A stretch of DNA of 46,137 nucleotides from a virus. Under the pieces are notes generated by a model that was given only the letters and a program-made list of their open reading frames with translations, had not been told where the DNA came from and searched no databases. The position numbers and the translations under genes are program-made. The stretch spans positions 1 through 46,137 of the IMG/VR virus record IMGVR_UViG_3300042294_003123, one strand, 5' to 3'. Every line of letters starts with the position of its first letter. Positions within the stretch are counted from its first letter, which is position 1. This document shows, piece after piece, positions 4,221-12,680 of the stretch.

Positions 4221-5006
4221 ATGAGAAAAAATATTAGTTTTATCCCTCTAAACAACGACATTAACAAATTATCCGCTTTCATTCCTTCATTAGATGCAAG
4301 TTGGAGAGCTAATCAACGTATTAAATCAAAACCAGTAATGGTTGAATCCCTAGATGCTGTAAGAGAGTTTCAACGTCAAGGTTGGAATATTGCTGGGGCT
4401 TATGAAAAACGAGATAAAAATCGTAAAGTTGGTTCCCACTTTATTAAAATGGAACATCCTGATTTTGTTATTAAAAATTCTAAAGGTCAAGCCGAGGCTG
4501 TTGCCACTATGAATATTTCTAACTCTTGTACAGGAGCAAAACCTATGGAACTTGACTTAGGTGCTTATCGTCAGGTTTGTTCAAATGGTTTGATTGCTCA
4601 TACCTCTTATAGTAATGAAAAAGTACCTCATACTGAAAAAGGTCAATATTCATTACAAGAAATCCTTTGTGATTTAGGTATTCGTACACAAGGTGTTATG
4701 GAAGAGTTTAATAAACTAAAAGAAAAACAATTGTCACCTAAAGAAATGATGAATTTAGCTACACAAGCAGCAGATGCTCGTTTTGGTAAAGGTCATCGTA
4801 TTGATGTTTCTCAATTACTTAATGTAGTAAGAGAGGAAGATAAAGGTGATGATGTTTGGACTGTGTTTAATCGTATTCAAGAAAACCTAACTCAACCTCA
4901 TCGTATTATTGATAATATGGGAAATATGATGAGTGGTGTATCTGATATTAATGAAGATACTCGTATTAATAAAGAGTTGTTTGAATTAGCACACGCTTAC
5001 GCTTAA
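4221..5006 (+). CDS. DUF932 family protein, copy 1
   Basis: A 261-residue protein with the hallmark of DUF932 (the phage/plasmid-like TIGR03299 group): a segment near residues 113-127, Gly-Ala-Tyr-Arg-Gln-Val-Cys-Ser-Asn-Gly-Leu, followed by a helical region. The family is widespread on phages and plasmids, and its biochemical role is not established. It is a clear paralogue of the gene at 6208: both share the R-x-V/M-C-x-N-G-L motif and a downstream ARFG/VRFG segment. It is transcribed from its own leaderless-type promoter and closed by a terminator that overlaps the next promoter. Confidence 0.75.
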   Translation: MRKNISFIPLNNDINKLSAFIPSLDASWRANQRIKSKPVMVESLDAVREFQRQGWNIAGAYEKRDKNRKVGSHFIKMEHPDFVIKNSKGQAEAVATMNISNSCTGAKPMELDLGAYRQVCSNGLIAHTSYSNEKVPHTEKGQYSLQEILCDLGIRTQGVMEEFNKLKEKQLSPKEMMNLATQAADARFGKGHRIDVSQLLNVVREEDKGDDVWTVFNRIQENLTQPHRIIDNMGNMMSGVSDINEDTRINKELFELAHAYA

Positions 5007-6207: not shown

Positions 6208-7008
6208 ATGTTAAACATTCAAAATTCCGAGTTCATTTCAAAAGAACAAATCCGTCAACAAGCTCCTTCAATTTTTACTGCTACCAGTGCTCCTGGAACT
6301 AGTGAAAAGTATGCTCACATTCCTACCGATAAAATTATCGATGATATGGCTGCCCTTGGTTGGGGTGTTGTAGATGCTAAACAAGTTCGTGCTCGTAAAG
6401 GAATTGGTTTCCAAAAGCACTTGGTTGTATTCCGTAATAACGATATTCAAATCACTGCCGAAGATGGTGATAACGTTTTCCCACAAATCCTATTGACTAA
6501 CAGTCATGATGGTAAAAATGCGTTTACCTTTACTGCTGGTTTGTTCCGTATGGTTTGTGAAAATGGTTTGGTTGTGTCAAGCCGTGAGTTTGAAAATATG
6601 AAGATTCGTCATATGGGTTATTCATTTGATGAATTGCAAAACACCATTAAATCAATGGTTGAAAAATTACCTTTGACTGTTGAATCACTTAATAAATTCC
6701 GTCAAGTAGAATTAGGTCAAGAACAAGCTCTTGATTTTGCTAAAAAAGCTCTTGAAGTTCGTTTTGGCGATGATGTTGAAAATATTAAAGTTGATTTGAA
6801 TGATTTACTTACTGCTACTCGTCCAGCAGATAAAGGTTCTGATTTGTGGTCAATTTACAATGTAGTTCAAGAAAAATTGGTTCATGGTATGTTTAATTAC
6901 ACCTATGGTTCCAAAGTTCGTAAAGCTCGTAAAATCAAAAACTTCCAACAAGATTTGGTTTTGAACGAAAGATTGTATGATTTGGCTCTTGAGTACGTTC
7001 CCGCATAA
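6208..7008 (+). CDS. DUF932 family protein, copy 2
   Basis: A 266-residue paralogue of the 4221 gene. The signature Gly-Leu-Phe-Arg-Met-Val-Cys-Glu-Asn-Gly-Leu-Val-Val is at residues 111-123, followed by a long helical C-terminal half. The two copies diverge strongly outside the signature, so the duplication is old or they were acquired separately. The function of the family is unknown. It has its own promoter and long A-rich leader, and its stop codon sits in the loop of an 11-bp hairpin. Confidence 0.75.
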   Translation: MLNIQNSEFISKEQIRQQAPSIFTATSAPGTSEKYAHIPTDKIIDDMAALGWGVVDAKQVRARKGIGFQKHLVVFRNNDIQITAEDGDNVFPQILLTNSHDGKNAFTFTAGLFRMVCENGLVVSSREFENMKIRHMGYSFDELQNTIKSMVEKLPLTVESLNKFRQVELGQEQALDFAKKALEVRFGDDVENIKVDLNDLLTATRPADKGSDLWSIYNVVQEKLVHGMFNYTYGSKVRKARKIKNFQQDLVLNERLYDLALEYVPA

Positions 7009-8107: not shown

Positions 8108-8108
8108 A

Positions 8109-8129
8109 GTTCTTTGACATACGAGAAAC
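8109..8129 (+). promoter_or_regulatory. boxA-like antitermination site 1
   Basis: Begins GTTCTTTGACATA, similar to bacterial boxA of rRNA leaders (TGCTCTTTAACA in E. coli). All 21 bases recur exactly at 9663-9683, again just upstream of a tRNA. Confidence 0.55.
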
Positions 8130-8133
8130 CAAT

Positions 8134-8770: not shown

Positions 8771-8854
8771 GGAAAATGACCCTTGATGGTGATAGGGCTT
8801 GCCTGCTAAGCAATGTGTACCTTCGGGTATTTGGTTCGATTCCAACTTTTTCCG
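8771..8854 (+). tRNA. tRNA-Ser(GCT)
   Basis: Class II tRNA: acceptor GGAAAAT/TTTTTCC with one mismatch, anticodon loop CTGCTAA, variable arm with a CTTCGG loop, discriminator G. Confidence 0.9.
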
Positions 8855-8866
8855 CTATGTAAAAAC

Positions 8867-8875
8867 TATTTATAA
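8867..8875 (+). promoter_or_regulatory. Late-type TATTTATAA element
   Basis: TATTTATAA ends 7 bases before the ATG at 8883; there is no matching -33 box. Confidence 0.45.
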
Positions 8876-8882
8876 CAAAACT

Positions 8883-9335
8883 ATGGAATTCAGAACATTA
8901 ACAAACCGGAAAAAAATTGAATTGGTTGACTACGTTAGAGCGTATTTAAACGACAATCCTCATGTTGAGGTATTAGTTGGGTGTGACTCGCAAGGTTATT
9001 GGGATAAAACAATATATGCAACTGTAGTCGCATTATATAAACCGGGTAATGGTGCTCATGTTTTATACCATAAAGAAGTATTACCTGTTGAAAGAGTTCG
9101 TCAAGTACGTTTGATGAATGAAGTTTGGAAATCAATTGAAGTAGCTGAATTATTAAAAAATGCAGGTTTACCTCAAGTTAAATATATTGATATAGACATT
9201 AACCCTGATAAAAGATATAAATCAAACGAAGTTTTAAGAGCAGCAGTTGGTTTAGTTGAAGGGATGGGTTATAAAGTTAGATACAAAACATTAGGTGCAA
9301 TGGCAACATTTGCTGCTGATACGTTAGTAAAATAA
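8883..9335 (+). CDS. RNase H-fold protein of the YkuK/DUF458 type
   Basis: A 150-residue protein. The first beta-strand VEVLVGCDSQG places Asp35 where the first catalytic Asp of an RNase H fold belongs; Glu80, Asp103/105 (YIDIDINPDKRYKSN) and Asp146 could complete the site. This pattern matches the YkuK/DUF458 group, described as predicted RNase H-like nucleases without a firm function. The start at 8883 is taken because the frame upstream runs through tRNA-Ser. Its position between tRNA-Ser and tRNA-Arg suggests a role in RNA metabolism, for example processing or turnover of the island's RNAs (inference). Confidence 0.75.
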   Translation: MEFRTLTNRKKIELVDYVRAYLNDNPHVEVLVGCDSQGYWDKTIYATVVALYKPGNGAHVLYHKEVLPVERVRQVRLMNEVWKSIEVAELLKNAGLPQVKYIDIDINPDKRYKSNEVLRAAVGLVEGMGYKVRYKTLGAMATFAADTLVK

Positions 9336-9572: not shown

Positions 9573-9575
9573 ATT

Positions 9576-9592
9576 AGAATAATTCTAAATGA
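9576..9592. repeat. Palindromic repeat copy 3 (AGAATAATTCTAAATGA)
   Basis: Third copy of the AGAATNATTCTAAATGA element, 19 bases upstream of the promoter at 9612. Copies 1 and 2 are at 3263 and 6103. Confidence 0.65.
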
Positions 9593-9611
9593 ATTTTTCT
9601 TTTAGAAATGA

Positions 9612-9641
9612 TTGGAATTGCAAAATATTGTTTGTATATTC
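9612..9641 (+). promoter_or_regulatory. Promoter inside the tRNA island
   Basis: TTGG 9612-9615, TATATT 9635-9640, spacer 19. It is followed directly by a boxA-like site and tRNA-Leu, as in a stable-RNA operon. Confidence 0.8.
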
Positions 9642-9662
9642 ACATCATAGTAAGAATTAAAA

Positions 9663-9683
9663 GTTCTTTGACATACGAGAAAC
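9663..9683 (+). promoter_or_regulatory. boxA-like antitermination site 2
   Basis: Exact 21-base copy of the site at 8109-8129, placed 23 bases after the -7 box and 4 bases before tRNA-Leu(TAG). Confidence 0.6.
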
Positions 9684-9687
9684 AAAT

Positions 9688-9769
9688 ACCCTGGTGGTGG
9701 AATTGGTAGACACGCCGGTCTTAGAAACCGGTGCTTAATCGCTTGCGAGTTCGAGTCTCGCCCTCGGTA
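9688..9769 (+). tRNA. tRNA-Leu(TAG), weak acceptor stem
   Basis: Class II tRNA with GGTAGACACG D-loop, anticodon stem CCGGT/ACCGG with loop CTTAGAA, and T-loop TTCGAGT. The acceptor ACCCTGG/CCTCGGT has two central mismatches (C-C and T-T). Confidence 0.85.
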
Positions 9770-9772
9770 CAA

Positions 9773-9968
9773 ATGAAACATTCCTTACATAGGACGGATT
9801 AGCACCGTTGAAAGACAATCTTCGACTTTTGGGAGTAGCTACTCAATAAGATACATGGCTCGAAGTGTTATGTGATGGACCCTGCTCTGTGTGGCCACAC
9901 AACAGGTGAACAGTAAACTATGTTCAGTAAAATCTAAAACTACGGTGAGCGTAGAAGGATAGTTTCAT
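9773..9968 (+). ncRNA. Structured RNA candidate R2 (about 196 nt)
   Basis: Fills the gap between tRNA-Leu(TAG), ending 9769, and tRNA-Asn, starting 9972. The ends pair: ATGAAAC (9773-9779) with GTTTCAT (9962-9968), then after a 2x2 internal loop TCCTT (9782-9786) with AAGGA (9955-9959). Inside are ACGG/CCGT, CTTCGA/TCGAAG enclosing GAGTAGCTACTC, a hairpin around GTGTGGCCACAC closed by CCTG/CAGG, GAACA/TGTTC, and CTACG/CGTAG. There is no reading frame and no tRNA signature. T4 also carries stable non-tRNA RNAs (C and D) in its tRNA cluster; any sharing of function with those is unknown. Confidence 0.65.
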
Positions 9969-9971
9969 AAT

Positions 9972-10043
9972 GTCTTGGTAGCTCAGTGGTAGAGCAAGCG
10001 GCTGTTAACCGCTAGGTCGTAGGTTCGAAACCTTCCCAGGACG
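9972..10043 (+). tRNA. tRNA-Asn(GTT)
   Basis: Acceptor GTCTTGG/CCAGGAC, anticodon stem AGCGG/CCGCT with loop CTGTTAA, T-loop TTCGAAA, discriminator G. Confidence 0.93.
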
Positions 10044-10049
10044 CTAAAT

Positions 10050-10121
10050 GGCCCGTTCATCTATCGGTTAGGATACCAGGTTTTCAACCTGTAAAGACGA
10101 GTTCGATTCTCGTACGGGCTA
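10050..10121 (+). tRNA. tRNA-Glu(TTC)
   Basis: Acceptor GGCCCGT/ACGGGCT, anticodon loop TTTTCAA, T-stem ACGAG/CTCGT. Confidence 0.92.
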
Positions 10122-10130
10122 CAAATAAAT

Positions 10131-10204
10131 TGCGGGGAAGATGAGCTGGTGCACACAGGGGTCTCATAAGCCTCTCTAGGTGGATTCGATTTCCACCCCC
10201 GCAA
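10131..10204 (+). tRNA. tRNA with CAT anticodon (Met or Ile2)
   Basis: Perfect acceptor TGCGGGG/CCCCGCA, anticodon loop CTCATAA, T-stem GTGGA/TCCAC. The acceptor resembles initiator tRNA, but the anticodon stem lacks the three G-C pairs of initiators and the D-arm is irregular. It could be initiator-derived, elongator Met or lysidine-dependent Ile. Confidence 0.8.
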
Positions 10205-10214
10205 CTAAATAAAT

Positions 10215-10285
10215 TACCCTCTCGTCTAACGGCAGGACAAGTGGTTTTGGACCACTGAATTGGAGTTCGAATCTCTGGGGGGTAA
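10215..10285 (+). tRNA. tRNA-Gln(TTG)
   Basis: Acceptor TACCCTC/GGGGGTA, anticodon stem AGTGG/CCACT with loop TTTTGGA, T-loop TTCGAAT. Confidence 0.92.
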
Positions 10286-10292
10286 CTAAAAT

Positions 10293-10365
10293 GGGCTGTT
10301 GGTATAGTTGGCTAACACGGTAGCTTTGCAAGCTTCAATCCCCAGTTCAAATCTGGGACGGTCCA
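10293..10365 (+). tRNA. tRNA-Ala(TGC)
   Basis: Acceptor GGGCTGT/ACGGTCC, anticodon loop TTTGCAA, T-stem CCCAG/CTGGG. Confidence 0.92.
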
Positions 10366-10373
10366 CAAAATTT

Positions 10374-10448
10374 GGTCTATTAGTGTAGTGGTTAACACGC
10401 CTCACTGTCTATGAGGTAGCCTCGGTTCGAATCCGTGATAGACCGCCA
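10374..10448 (+). tRNA. tRNA-Asp(GTC), 3' CCA encoded
   Basis: Perfect acceptor GGTCTAT/ATAGACC, anticodon stem CCTCA/TGAGG with loop CTGTCTA, discriminator G followed by encoded CCA. Confidence 0.94.
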
Positions 10449-10575
10449 AAAGAAAAAGTAGTGAAGCTGTAATTAGGAAGTAGAGTGTATTAATTACCGA
10501 AAAAGGGTTTATAGTAGGTAGGCGTCACTTATTGCACCTAATCAGAAACCTTGAAAGACCCGAAACTTTTTCTTT
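10449..10575 (+). ncRNA. Structured RNA candidate R3 (about 127 nt)
   Basis: Starts at the base after the CCA of tRNA-Asp and ends 4 bases before tRNA-Ser. The ends form a perfect 11-bp stem, AAAGAAAAAGT (10449-10459) with ACTTTTTCTTT (10565-10575). Inside, GTAATTA pairs with TAATTAC (10469-10475 with 10491-10497), GGTTT with AAACC (10506-10510 with 10546-10550), and TAGGT with ACCTA (10515-10519 with 10536-10540). There is no coding frame and no T-loop. Flanking tRNA maturation would release it with near-precise ends. In size and setting it resembles the T4 stable RNAs C and D. Confidence 0.7.
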
Positions 10576-10579
10576 ATTC

Positions 10580-10666
10580 GGAAGTTTGGCAGAGCGGTCG
10601 ATCGCGCTAGTCTTGAAAACTAGAGATGTTGAAAGGCATCCGGGGGTTCGAATCCCTCAACTTCCG
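10580..10666 (+). tRNA. tRNA-Ser(TGA)
   Basis: Class II tRNA: perfect acceptor GGAAGTT/AACTTCC, anticodon stem CTAGT/ACTAG with loop CTTGAAA, long variable arm, discriminator G. Confidence 0.93.
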
Positions 10667-10774
10667 CACCTTAAAACCGATTCGGGTTCGTGAACAAAGG
10701 AGGCCTGCGACTTGAAATATAGACAAATCACGTTAAATCTCCTCACACTAGGTGGTATCGGTGACCTAGTATTT
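10667..10774 (+). ncRNA. Structured RNA candidate R4 (about 108 nt)
   Basis: The gap between tRNA-Ser(TGA) and tRNA-Arg(TCT). AGGAG (10698-10702) can pair with CTCCT (10739-10743), and ACTAGGT (10747-10753) pairs perfectly with ACCTAGT (10764-10770). ACCGAT near 10676 could pair with ATCGGT near 10757 as an alternative. No closing stem as clear as in R2 or R3, so this is the weaker case. Confidence 0.4.
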
Positions 10775-10846
10775 GGTTCCATAGTTAAATGGATATAACA
10801 AGACTCTTCTAAAGTCTGGTTCGTGGTTCGATTCCACGTGGAACTA
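10775..10846 (+). tRNA. tRNA-Arg(TCT)
   Basis: Acceptor GGTTCCA/TGGAACT, anticodon stem AGACT/AGTCT with loop CTTCTAA, T-stem CGTGG/CCACG. Confidence 0.93.
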
Positions 10847-10853
10847 CAAAAAA

Positions 10854-10920
10854 GGATACTTACAGCAATTTTTAACTATCAAATTTGTAACTTGACTCAG
10901 TAAAAACAGTATCCTGTAAC
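10854..10920 (+). ncRNA. Tandem hairpin RNA A
   Basis: GGATACT (10854-10860) pairs with AGTATCC (10908-10914). The 5' strand is followed by TACAGCAATTTTTAAC and the 3' strand by TGTAAC. TTACAG next to the 5' strand is complementary to CTGTAA after the 3' strand, so a pseudoknot is possible. Elements B and C share the layout. It lies upstream of the Ro-like gene. Confidence 0.6.
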
Positions 10921-10927
10921 TTATTAA

Positions 10928-10990
10928 GGGCTTCTAACAGCAAATAAAAAATACTCAGACTGCAAATCCGATTAAAAAAACAGAAGCCCG
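10928..10990 (+). ncRNA. Tandem hairpin RNA B
   Basis: GGGCTTCT (10928-10935) pairs with AGAAGCCC (10982-10989), 8 bp with stem bases unlike A and C, followed by AACAGCAAAT and, before the 3' strand, an A-run; then GTAAA. It is the same architecture with a different stem, which argues for a conserved RNA structure. Confidence 0.6.
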
Positions 10991-11018
10991 TAAATTTTAA
11001 AAAAATTTTCAATATAAC

Positions 11019-11048
11019 TTGGTTATTTTGAAAAAAGTTATTATATTT
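11019..11048 (+). promoter_or_regulatory. Promoter between hairpin RNAs B and C
   Basis: TTGG 11019-11022, TATATT 11042-11047, spacer 19. It would transcribe hairpins C and D and the Ro-like gene as one unit. Confidence 0.7.
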
Positions 11049-11069
11049 ATAATATTAAGAAATTAAAAA

Positions 11070-11128
11070 GGATTCAGACAGCAATTTTCAACAATTTCAT
11101 TAGGACGAAAAAAACGGAATCCTGTAAC
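11070..11128 (+). ncRNA. Tandem hairpin RNA C
   Basis: GGATTC (11070-11075) pairs with GAATCC (11117-11122). ACAGCAATTTTCAAC after the 5' strand matches element A nearly base for base, as does TGTAACTTCTTGAGGG after the 3' strand. Confidence 0.6.
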
Positions 11129-11131
11129 TTC

Positions 11132-11255
11132 TTGAGGGAATGAGTACATCCAGCAATTATTATTACTTATACATAATAATTCGAAACTAACACCTCAGTC
11201 ATCGACTCCCCTAGCCGATGCCGTACTCAGTAGATCCCCTCAAACATTGGCTAGG
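11132..11255 (+). ncRNA. Four-helix RNA D upstream of the Ro-like gene
   Basis: TTGAGGG (11132-11138) pairs with CCCTCAA (11237-11243), TGAGTAC (11141-11147) with GTACTCA (11223-11229), AATTATTAT (11155-11163) with ATAATAATT (11173-11181), and CATCG (11200-11204) with CGATG (11216-11220). CCTAGCC in the last loop is complementary to GGCTAGG at 11249-11255, giving a pseudoknot or a switch. It contains CAGCAA at the position seen in hairpins A to C. It may be a larger relative of them or a 5' regulatory element of the gene 49 bases downstream. Confidence 0.65.
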
Positions 11256-11303
11256 TGCGGGTCATGACAGAGGCTTAACTTAAAATAAAAAAAAATAAAA
11301 GAT

Positions 11304-12680
11304 ATGAGTAATTTAATTAACGCAATGAGACAAAAAGATGCCTTAACTGCTAACGGCGCTTTGACTAACTCTACTTCGTTGAATGCGGTTGTAGACATGT
11401 TCTTTTTAGCAGGTGCTTCTCGTAGAATGTCAGAACAAGAAATCATTAATGTGTTTGTAAAAGCATATAATGAAGATCCTAACTTGGCTGTAAAATGTCT
11501 GTTTTGGGCTCGTGACGTTAGAGGTGGTGCTGGTGAACGTAGGTTCTTCCAAATCATCATGAAATATATTAGCGAAAACTACCCATCTGTTTTTGAATTT
11601 AATATTCGTTTAACTCCAGAATATGGTTATTGGAAAGATGTTTTTAATGTCTTAAATCCAAACAGAACTGTTTTAGATTGGATGTCAGAACAATTGAATG
11701 ATTCTAATAGTGGATTGATTGCTAAGTGGTTTCCACGTAGAGGTGTTTGGTTCTCTTCAATGCATAAACATTTGGGAATGACTCCAAAACAATTTCGTAA
11801 AATGATTGTGGAAAAAACTAAAGTTGTTGAAACTTCTATGTGTAATAAAGAATGGGATGCTATCGAGTATTCTAAAATTCCTTCACAAGCTTTTCAAAAA
11901 TACAAAAGAGCATTTTCAAGAAATGATGAATCTAGGTTCAAAGATTTTATAAGTGCTGTTGTAAAAGGTGAAGCTAAAGTTAATTCAGGAACTTTATTTC
12001 CATATCAATTATATCAATCTTACATTAGAGGACTAGATAAAAATTCAGTGCTTGCACAATGGATTAATCTACCTGATTATGTAGGTGAGGGATCATTTTT
12101 ACCAGTTTGTGATGTTTCTGGTTCAATGAATGGTTTACCAATGGAAATATCTGTTTCTTTAGGTGTATACTTGTCAGAAAGAAATAAATCAGCATTTAAA
12201 GATGCCTTTATTACCTTCTCAGAATCTCCAAGATTACAATATTTAAAAGGTAATGTAGTTGAAAGATTTAGTCAATTAGCTAATGCTGATTGGGGTATGA
12301 GTACTAATTTACAATCTGTATTTGATCTAGTATTAAATAAAGCAATTGAAAATAGATTAGCTCAATCCGATTTGCCAGAAACTATTTTGATTATTTCTGA
12401 TATGGAATTTAATTATGCTTGTGGAAATAAAACTAATTTTGAAGTAATTCAAGATAAGTTTGAAGCCGCTGGTTATAAAATGCCAAAATTAGCTTTTTGG
12501 AATGTAAATGGAAGAGAAGGTAACGTACCAGTATCCGCAAATACTAAAGATGTTGCCTTAATTTCAGGAGCTTCACCATCAATCGTTAAAAACGTTTTGT
12601 CAGGTAAAGATTTTACTCCAAAAGGTATCATGTTGGAAACTCTATTGAGTGAAAGATATGAAAAAATTATGGCTCTTTAA
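11304..12680 (+). CDS. Ro60-like protein (DUF2828, TROVE-like plus vWA)
   Basis: A 458-residue protein with an N-terminal helical-repeat region (about 1-250) that includes the ARDVRGGAGERR segment typical of DUF2828, and a C-terminal von Willebrand A domain with an intact metal site: Asp270-Val-Ser272-Gly-Ser274, Thr334 and Asp366. This order is that of Ro60/TROVE proteins, ring-shaped RNA chaperones that bind misfolded RNA ends and Y RNAs. Placement at the end of a tRNA and ncRNA island, behind four structured RNAs, fits an RNA-handling role (inference). The leader is A-rich without a Shine-Dalgarno. The stop codon lies in the loop of a terminator just before tRNA-Met. Confidence 0.8.
   Translation: MSNLINAMRQKDALTANGALTNSTSLNAVVDMFFLAGASRRMSEQEIINVFVKAYNEDPNLAVKCLFWARDVRGGAGERRFFQIIMKYISENYPSVFEFNIRLTPEYGYWKDVFNVLNPNRTVLDWMSEQLNDSNSGLIAKWFPRRGVWFSSMHKHLGMTPKQFRKMIVEKTKVVETSMCNKEWDAIEYSKIPSQAFQKYKRAFSRNDESRFKDFISAVVKGEAKVNSGTLFPYQLYQSYIRGLDKNSVLAQWINLPDYVGEGSFLPVCDVSGSMNGLPMEISVSLGVYLSERNKSAFKDAFITFSESPRLQYLKGNVVERFSQLANADWGMSTNLQSVFDLVLNKAIENRLAQSDLPETILIISDMEFNYACGNKTNFEVIQDKFEAAGYKMPKLAFWNVNGREGNVPVSANTKDVALISGASPSIVKNVLSGKDFTPKGIMLETLLSERYEKIMAL

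Follow-up and report, generated by a model that had tools for sequence, protein, structure and literature searches.

The stretch of viral DNA analysed here (IMGVR_UViG_3300042294_003123, 46,137 nucleotides, referred to below as the window) contains, at positions 9773-9968 between two tRNA genes, a gene for a structured RNA of 196 nt, the centre of which corresponds to the Rfam family freshwater-1 (RF02979). The comparison of relatives shows that the RNA is the whole interval and not just the 62-nt centre covered by Rfam, because the covariation seen in the relatives spans the full ~196 nt; the flanks, nevertheless, may have been described before. The evidence is comparative throughout; it gives good support to the gene, its structure and its ends, and also shows the distribution of the RNA among phages. 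Concerning its role, the best explanation overall—a likely one, in which the release, the dimer and the function are all inferred—is that of a trans-acting phage RNA that is freed by tRNA maturation and pairs with itself. The features of the locus are as follows.

9688-9770, plus strand: upstream tRNA-Leu(UAG), called by ARAGORN.
9773-9968, plus strand: full-length RNA gene (extended freshwater-1 RNA), 196 nt, defined by the match to covariance model R1 and by covariation.
9773-9786, plus strand: closing stem P1, 5' strand (7 bp, 2x2 mismatch, 5 bp), with 13 of 14 pairs double-changed in 52 sequences.
9787-9791, plus strand: P2 (helix 2), 5' strand, with its partner at 9869-9873, supported by covariation.
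9794-9808, plus strand: P3 hairpin (helix 3), ACGG/CCGU with the loop AUUAGCA, double changes in all 4 pairs.
9820-9865, plus strand: P4 stem (helix 4; 9820-9825 with 9860-9865) around the variable P5 hairpin with the palindrome GAGTAGCTACTC, supported by covariation.
9871-9932, plus strand: Rfam RF02979 freshwater-1 core (P6 + P7), 72.9 bits, E 1.5e-16.
9881-9906, plus strand: P6a (CCUG/CAGG, invariant) and P6b hairpin (UGUGU/ACACA), from the Rfam match and the alignment.
9893-9896, plus strand: tip loop L6, GGCC, self-complementary, a predicted symmetric kissing loop judged from the loop states in relatives.
9908-9925, plus strand: P7 hairpin (helix 8), GAACA/UGUUC, double changes in all 5 pairs.
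9940-9954, plus strand: P8 hairpin (helix 9), CUACG/CGUAG, supported by covariation and missing in one subfamily.
9955-9968, plus strand: closing stem P1, 3' strand, supported by covariation.
9972-10044, plus strand: downstream tRNA-Asn(GUU), called by ARAGORN.

According to ARAGORN, the RNA is separated by 2 nt from the tRNA-Leu(UAG) and by 3 nt from the tRNA-Asn(GUU), and no closed reading frame of more than 23 codons lies inside the interval. Thermodynamic stability was considered as a proof of the RNA and rejected, the z-score of the fold energy being -1.56, with 15 of 200 shuffles equally stable, a value that is non-significant taken alone; the minimum-energy fold (-49.5) and the conserved fold (-40.2) are, in addition, two different structures. 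The reality of the RNA is settled by its relatives. These were gathered by running patterns based on the core and the 5' domain against IMG/VR and, once, against bacterial genomes. Chance coding matches among the pattern matches (L011, L016, L042, L058, L060-L070, L072 and others) were excluded; the true members are similar to each other over the full ~196 nt, whereas the chance coding matches are not.

The alignment of 52 members (A3), in which the structure is named from the window, has standard pairs in 93.3% of its paired cells, in comparison with 36.6-44.4% if the partners are slid by 1-3 columns. Changes on both sides are seen in 35 of the 47 pairs, and the number of double-changed cells, 412, stands against 127 +/- 12 in shuffles, none of the 500 being as high; with regard to the paired cells and the covariation score, too, no shuffle out of 500 is as good. 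All helices of at least 4 pairs show double changes, save the invariant P6a, while P4 is 99.7% paired with double changes in 5 of its 6 pairs. The structure proposed by RNAalifold on its own consists of 39 pairs, 28 of them with double changes, and most of its helices coincide with those given above. The closing stem P1 is composed of AUGAAAC/GUUUCAU (7 bp), an AU/UA 2x2 mismatch and UCCUU/AAGGA (5 bp), i.e. 12 bp in total. In a scan of column pairs for long-range or pseudoknot pairing, no stacked candidate could be separated from phylogenetic correlation. The covariance model R1, built from 52 sequences with that of the window itself among them, matches the window over its positions 1-198 of 198 with 196.1 bits, exactly at 9773-9968.

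Most of what the first-pass annotation had proposed from the letters of the window was confirmed in this way. A structured RNA of ~196 nt bounded by tRNAs held, on the basis of covariation and the R1 match, and so did the absence of a reading frame inside (none exceeding 23 codons), the 12-bp pairing of the ends with a 2x2 internal loop and the inner hairpins; the ends at 9773 and 9968 held within one or two bases, the model made from the relatives giving the same span. The gaps to the two tRNAs, given there as 4 and 4 bases, had to be corrected to 2 and 3 nt. As to the two perfect palindromes claimed to be of 12 bases each, GAGTAGCTACTC (9833-9844) has 12 nt as claimed and the other one, TGTGTGGCCACACA (9888-9901), actually has 14 nt. 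Random drift of the closing stem in close relatives, which would have refuted the proposal, was not found: the sequence of P1 varies with its pairing kept. What had been missed was that the centre, 9871-9932, is the known family freshwater-1.

The match to RF02979 amounts to 72.9 bits, the gathering threshold being 72, and covers the model positions 1-62 of 62 without truncation; the E value given above comes from a search of the tRNA island alone. The P6 + P7 core of the window thus matches all 62 model positions, and it shows the two hairpins of freshwater-1, the first stem with a 3-nt bulge and the second with an 8-nt loop, both of which covary in the relatives. The Rfam model, however, is without the ends of the RNA and without P1, P2, P3, P4, P5 and P8, all of which belong to the ~196-nt RNA of the window, and, beyond the Rfam description, the full RNA is seen to be phage-borne and flush with tRNAs. 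Apart from tRNAs, no other family exceeded its threshold when the whole window was compared with Rfam, and a search of 9573-11303 at E up to 5 yielded, besides tRNA, only chance-level matches below threshold. Neither GOLLD nor ROOL had an Rfam covariance match in 9573-11303 at E up to 5; 6S RNA, tmRNA and RNase P RNA likewise gave no Rfam match at E up to 5, and no tmRNA is found by ARAGORN.

Regarding the distribution, R1 matches all of the 100 loci tested with 120-217 bits, the re-fetched copy of the window (L056) included, and a further 12 loci picked up by R1 at 54-133 bits form a second subfamily, which has UUCAG ahead of the core and whose displayed members are without P8 (GGUGA hairpin). 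Besides the window, about 110 phage loci are found by R1, and the 100 loci comprise 70 distinct RNAs. All 50 records searched as a whole have a match, with one copy per record; the sole double match (G437) is a single copy split into two adjacent parts at the end of a contig. The carrier contigs reach 310 kb, and one copy is situated in a contig of a Chitinophagaceae MAG (L057). Among cellular genomes, RF02979 was present in only 1 of 395 genomes of the phylum to which the Chitinophagaceae MAG genome (G001), on which that search was centred, belongs. No cultured phage carrying the RNA was identified by blastn in the 'phages' collection, and no copy was detected in the plasmids searched. The closest cultured-phage match of the baseplate protein of the window is from Flavobacterium phage immuto (46% identity), and the full RNA model run against the immuto genome and two other records gave only 11.7 bits at E 0.13, i.e. 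chance level. The RNA may be widespread in large Bacteroidota phages—a claim belonging to the bolder self-assembly reading given below, for and against which the balance is level.

Several natural variants are found among these loci. The entire P3-P5 domain is absent from L117, which keeps P1 and the core and still scores 120.7 bits with R1; a long extension is inserted within P5 in L084 and L099; and P8 is missing in L021, L035 and L122 as well. Because such variants without P3-P5 or P8 exist, P1 and P6/P7 can be considered the essential frame and the other arms peripheral. The invariant segments are GGACCCUGCUCUG, CAACAGG and GAAAG.

With respect to the neighbouring tRNAs, a same-strand tRNA called by ARAGORN ends at most 7 nt before, or at most 4 nt inside, the start of the RNA model in 88 of the 100 loci. 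These upstream tRNAs are of 12 kinds—Leu-UAA, Gly, Tyr, Ala, Glu, Leu-UAG, Asp, Gln, Met, Phe, Thr and Ile—and in about half of the loci the 3' end of the RNA is followed by a tRNA at a distance of no more than 9 nt; in many loci with no downstream tRNA, P1 runs into a U-tract. Among the 12 exceptions, several (L054, L084, L090, L099, L103 and L113) show a tRNA or a tRNA-like sequence not called by ARAGORN. A TAnnTTTG box within 60 nt was found in only two of the 100 loci scanned, L021 and L089, both of which are without an upstream tRNA; the distance from the end of the box to the RNA is 3 nt and 7 nt, respectively, and a TTG element lies 20 nt upstream of the box. The same arrangement is seen in L147 from the second subfamily, so that in the three tRNA-less loci the promoter ends 2-7 nt before the RNA. 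The TTTG/TAnnTTTG pattern is that of Bacteroidota promoters. The 5' end thus appears to be the same whether set by a tRNA or by a promoter, which is the best argument for a discrete transcript, albeit one inferred from the comparison, no RNA having been observed. The release by tRNA end-processing, already suggested by the first-pass annotation, can be regarded as likely because of the tight register to many tRNAs together with the promoters substituting for them in tRNA-less loci; it remains inferred, there being no transcript or processing data.

Two rival explanations start from the same position behind the tRNAs. The first one takes the RNA for a cis-acting spacer of the tRNA operon, i.e. 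an attenuator, a terminator or a processing aid for the neighbouring tRNAs. It is supported by the location, always on the tRNA strand and adjoining a tRNA, and by P1 with the U-tract, present in many loci without a downstream tRNA, which could terminate transcription. It is, however, unlikely: there is a single copy per phage, even where more than 20 tRNA genes are present, the upstream tRNAs are of 12 different kinds, a downstream tRNA is often missing, some loci have no tRNA and a promoter of their own, and no spacer would need the invariant core. The second one regards the interval as an element acting at the DNA level, either a mobile cassette or a recombination site, which inserts at the 3' ends of tRNA genes and whose structure would matter as single-stranded DNA. 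In its favour, the element is flush behind many different tRNAs and the carrier phages share few neighbouring genes. Against it, which makes it very improbable, stand the constant location on the tRNA strand, the promoters replacing tRNAs at a matched distance, the conservation of loops and junctions beyond the palindromic stems, and the ratio of G-U to A-C in P2-P8 (14 vs 6), the last one favouring the RNA strand only weakly. An RNA acting in trans is favoured instead because there is one copy per record and because the RNA depends neither on the tRNA species nor on a downstream gene.

Some further elements were observed in and around the tRNA island. Just upstream of the RNA in L090, L113, L099 and L084 there are tRNA-like sequences with acceptor ends of the AGTCAGG...CCTGACT type and unusual anticodon regions; they go unrecognised by ARAGORN and could possibly be conserved phage tRNA-like RNAs. 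In the window, the spacer 10449-10579 between tRNA-Asp and tRNA-Ser is structured, with a perfect closing stem of 11 bp (AAAGAAAAAGU/ACUUUUUCUUU); similar DNA is present in 9 fetched loci (77-100% identity) and there is no Rfam match, and this spacer may likewise contain an RNA gene of that type. A third spacer, 10668-10774 between tRNA-Ser and tRNA-Arg, contains hairpins and is kept in L130 at 81% identity. The segment 10848-11303 is made up of three consecutive hairpin-bracketed elements (AAAAAGGATAC...CAGTATCCTGTAAC and variants), for which Rfam gives matches to Dictyostelium class I RNA that stay below threshold. A near-identical 26-nt repeat, AGTTCTTTGACATACGAGAAAC, at 8108-8133 and 9662-9687, ends exactly where tRNA-Phe and tRNA-Leu start; it is similar to elements of the boxA antitermination or rRNA-leader type. 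An Rfam tRNA match of 30.6 bits at 8772-8853, not called by ARAGORN, overlaps the start of an RNase H-like ORF (8799-9335), and two DUF932 genes (4221-5006 and 6208-7008) are located upstream of the island.

Concerning protein neighbours, none is conserved, the largest cluster being present in 11 of 70 loci, so a conserved neighbouring protein as the partner of the RNA was rejected. In the window, the gene at 11304-12680 encodes a DUF2828 + DUF7788 protein (PHROG 850), with related proteins in 682 phage records. A third rival explanation would make the RNA a Y-RNA-like partner of this Ro-like protein. It rests on this gene being the first one after the island and on the PHROGs family being annotated as an RNA-binding protein; Y RNAs are also closed by pairing of their ends. 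It is very unlikely and has been largely refuted: the DUF7788 protein occurs in only 2 of 50 records carrying the RNA, and, common as the protein is in phages, the RNA was not found in any phage of the collection that supplied those 682 records. The co-occurrence with a Ro-like (TROVE or vWA) gene that a Y RNA would show is therefore not met.

The preferred reading, a trans-acting phage RNA, includes the prediction of a dimer, for which the tip loop of P6 was extracted without selecting for palindromes. The stem varies freely across the 19 distinct hairpin sequences of the first subfamily. The loop L6 is UGCA in 82 loci, GGCC in 14 (the window included), UCGA in 1, GCGC in the L022 type—as read from the fold in context, a simpler rule having read CGCA—and UACA once, in L089; it is hence self-complementary in every member but L089. 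All four combinations of an outer U-A or G-C with an inner GC or CG are used, and the palindrome is not required for the formation of the hairpin, since pairing of the central loop bases inside a single chain is impossible. With the hairpin columns excluded from the tree, 11 changes of loop state are counted, only one of which concerns a non-palindrome. It should be noted that, if hairpins are exchanged between phages, the number of independent changes may be overestimated; by a conservative count by type, 3 of the 4 non-UGCA loop types are palindromic, which gives p of about 0.0009 (binomial, random tetramers). The loop of P5 (L5) was considered as a second kissing loop and remained unsupported, CGCA, UGCU and AUCU occurring in addition to AAUU and AGCU; of the two palindromes in the first-pass annotation, that of P5 is accordingly not kept as a loop palindrome in the relatives.

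A comparable behaviour has been described for the OLE RNA, whose L9.3 palindrome switches from GGCC to GAUC or AGCU, and for L21a of GOLLD, with a switch of GC to CG (Kretsch et al. 2025; PMC12286853), such switches being taken there to indicate symmetric kissing loops between molecules; these loops were seen by cryo-EM (PMC12286853). Because the switching of the L6 palindrome matches the OLE/GOLLD pattern, two copies of the RNA are predicted to join as a homodimer via an L6 kissing loop; this prediction by analogy, made with no dimer data, is modestly favoured. The likeness to OLE consists in the tetranucleotide palindrome (GGCC, GAUC or AGCU) that lies in the symmetric kissing loop of its dimer and switches in evolution (PMC12286853), whereas OLE itself is a larger bacterial RNA with no Rfam match in the region of the window. 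The rival here is a trans-acting RNA working as a monomer, with the L6 palindrome kept for another reason, e.g. a symmetric protein ligand. For the monomer speak the lack of any observed dimer, the non-palindromic loop of L089 and the strong predominance of UGCA, seen in 82 of 100 loci. Against it, a loop read by a protein would be expected to keep one sequence, whereas L6 takes four palindromes, and 10 of the 11 loop changes on the tree are between palindromes. The monomer is the less likely of the two, but still possible.

Among the RNAs of known phage occurrence, GOLLD and ROOL are large and structured, are encoded by phages and prophages, frequently close to tRNA islands (PMC12286853), and form homo-oligomers, partly through kissing loops (PMC12286853). 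The RNA of the window is likewise phage-encoded near tRNA genes; it differs, however, in having 196 nt, where many GOLLD RNAs exceed 800 nt, in showing no sequence likeness to either family, and in that its oligomer would be simpler and is only predicted from the loop palindromes. The stable RNAs C and D of T4 are another example of the location in a phage tRNA cluster, their function being unknown.

Returning to the preferred reading, the phage gene in the interval would encode the full-length freshwater-1 RNA, a multibranched non-coding RNA of ~196 nt that acts in trans, and would be transcribed within the tRNA operon of the phage. The 3' processing of the upstream tRNA-Leu(UAG) would set its 5' end and the RNase P cleavage at the 5' end of tRNA-Asn(GUU) its 3' end, and the two ends of the freed RNA would pair in P1, protecting it against exonucleases. 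In phages without a flanking tRNA, their own Bacteroidota-type promoter and, in many loci, the U-tract after P1 would produce the same ends. The self-complementary L6 (GGCC in the window) would then pair two copies as a symmetric kissing-loop dimer, and this dimer, with its invariant core (GGACCCUGCUCUG ... CAACAGG), would probably bind a host component during infection. The invariant segments, GAAAG included, suggest a surface for binding a partner. An action on the host translation or RNA machinery is conceivable as well, but it is a guess, no evidence naming the target. The translation machinery seems a reasonable first place to look because the RNA would be expressed together with tRNAs and GOLLD reportedly binds ribosomes, as seen in pull-down assays (report cited in PMC12286853).

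Based on the above results, what had been an orphan motif of 62 nt can now be described as a defined gene that has ends, a genomic context, a likely host group and a testable quaternary structure. The bolder reading—that this is a compact RNA of ~200 nt, released from tRNA transcripts by the enzymes of tRNA maturation and assembling as an RNA-only homodimer or higher oligomer, i.e. a small counterpart of GOLLD and ROOL—has at present equal chances of being right or wrong. With its ~200 nt, the RNA lends itself much better than GOLLD or ROOL to synthesis, mutation and imaging, and the relatives provide a natural mutant series, including the deletion of a domain, the expansion of P5, a promoter in place of a tRNA and the switches of the loop. 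It may thereby become possible to address the reason why the tRNA islands of large phages include self-assembling RNAs.
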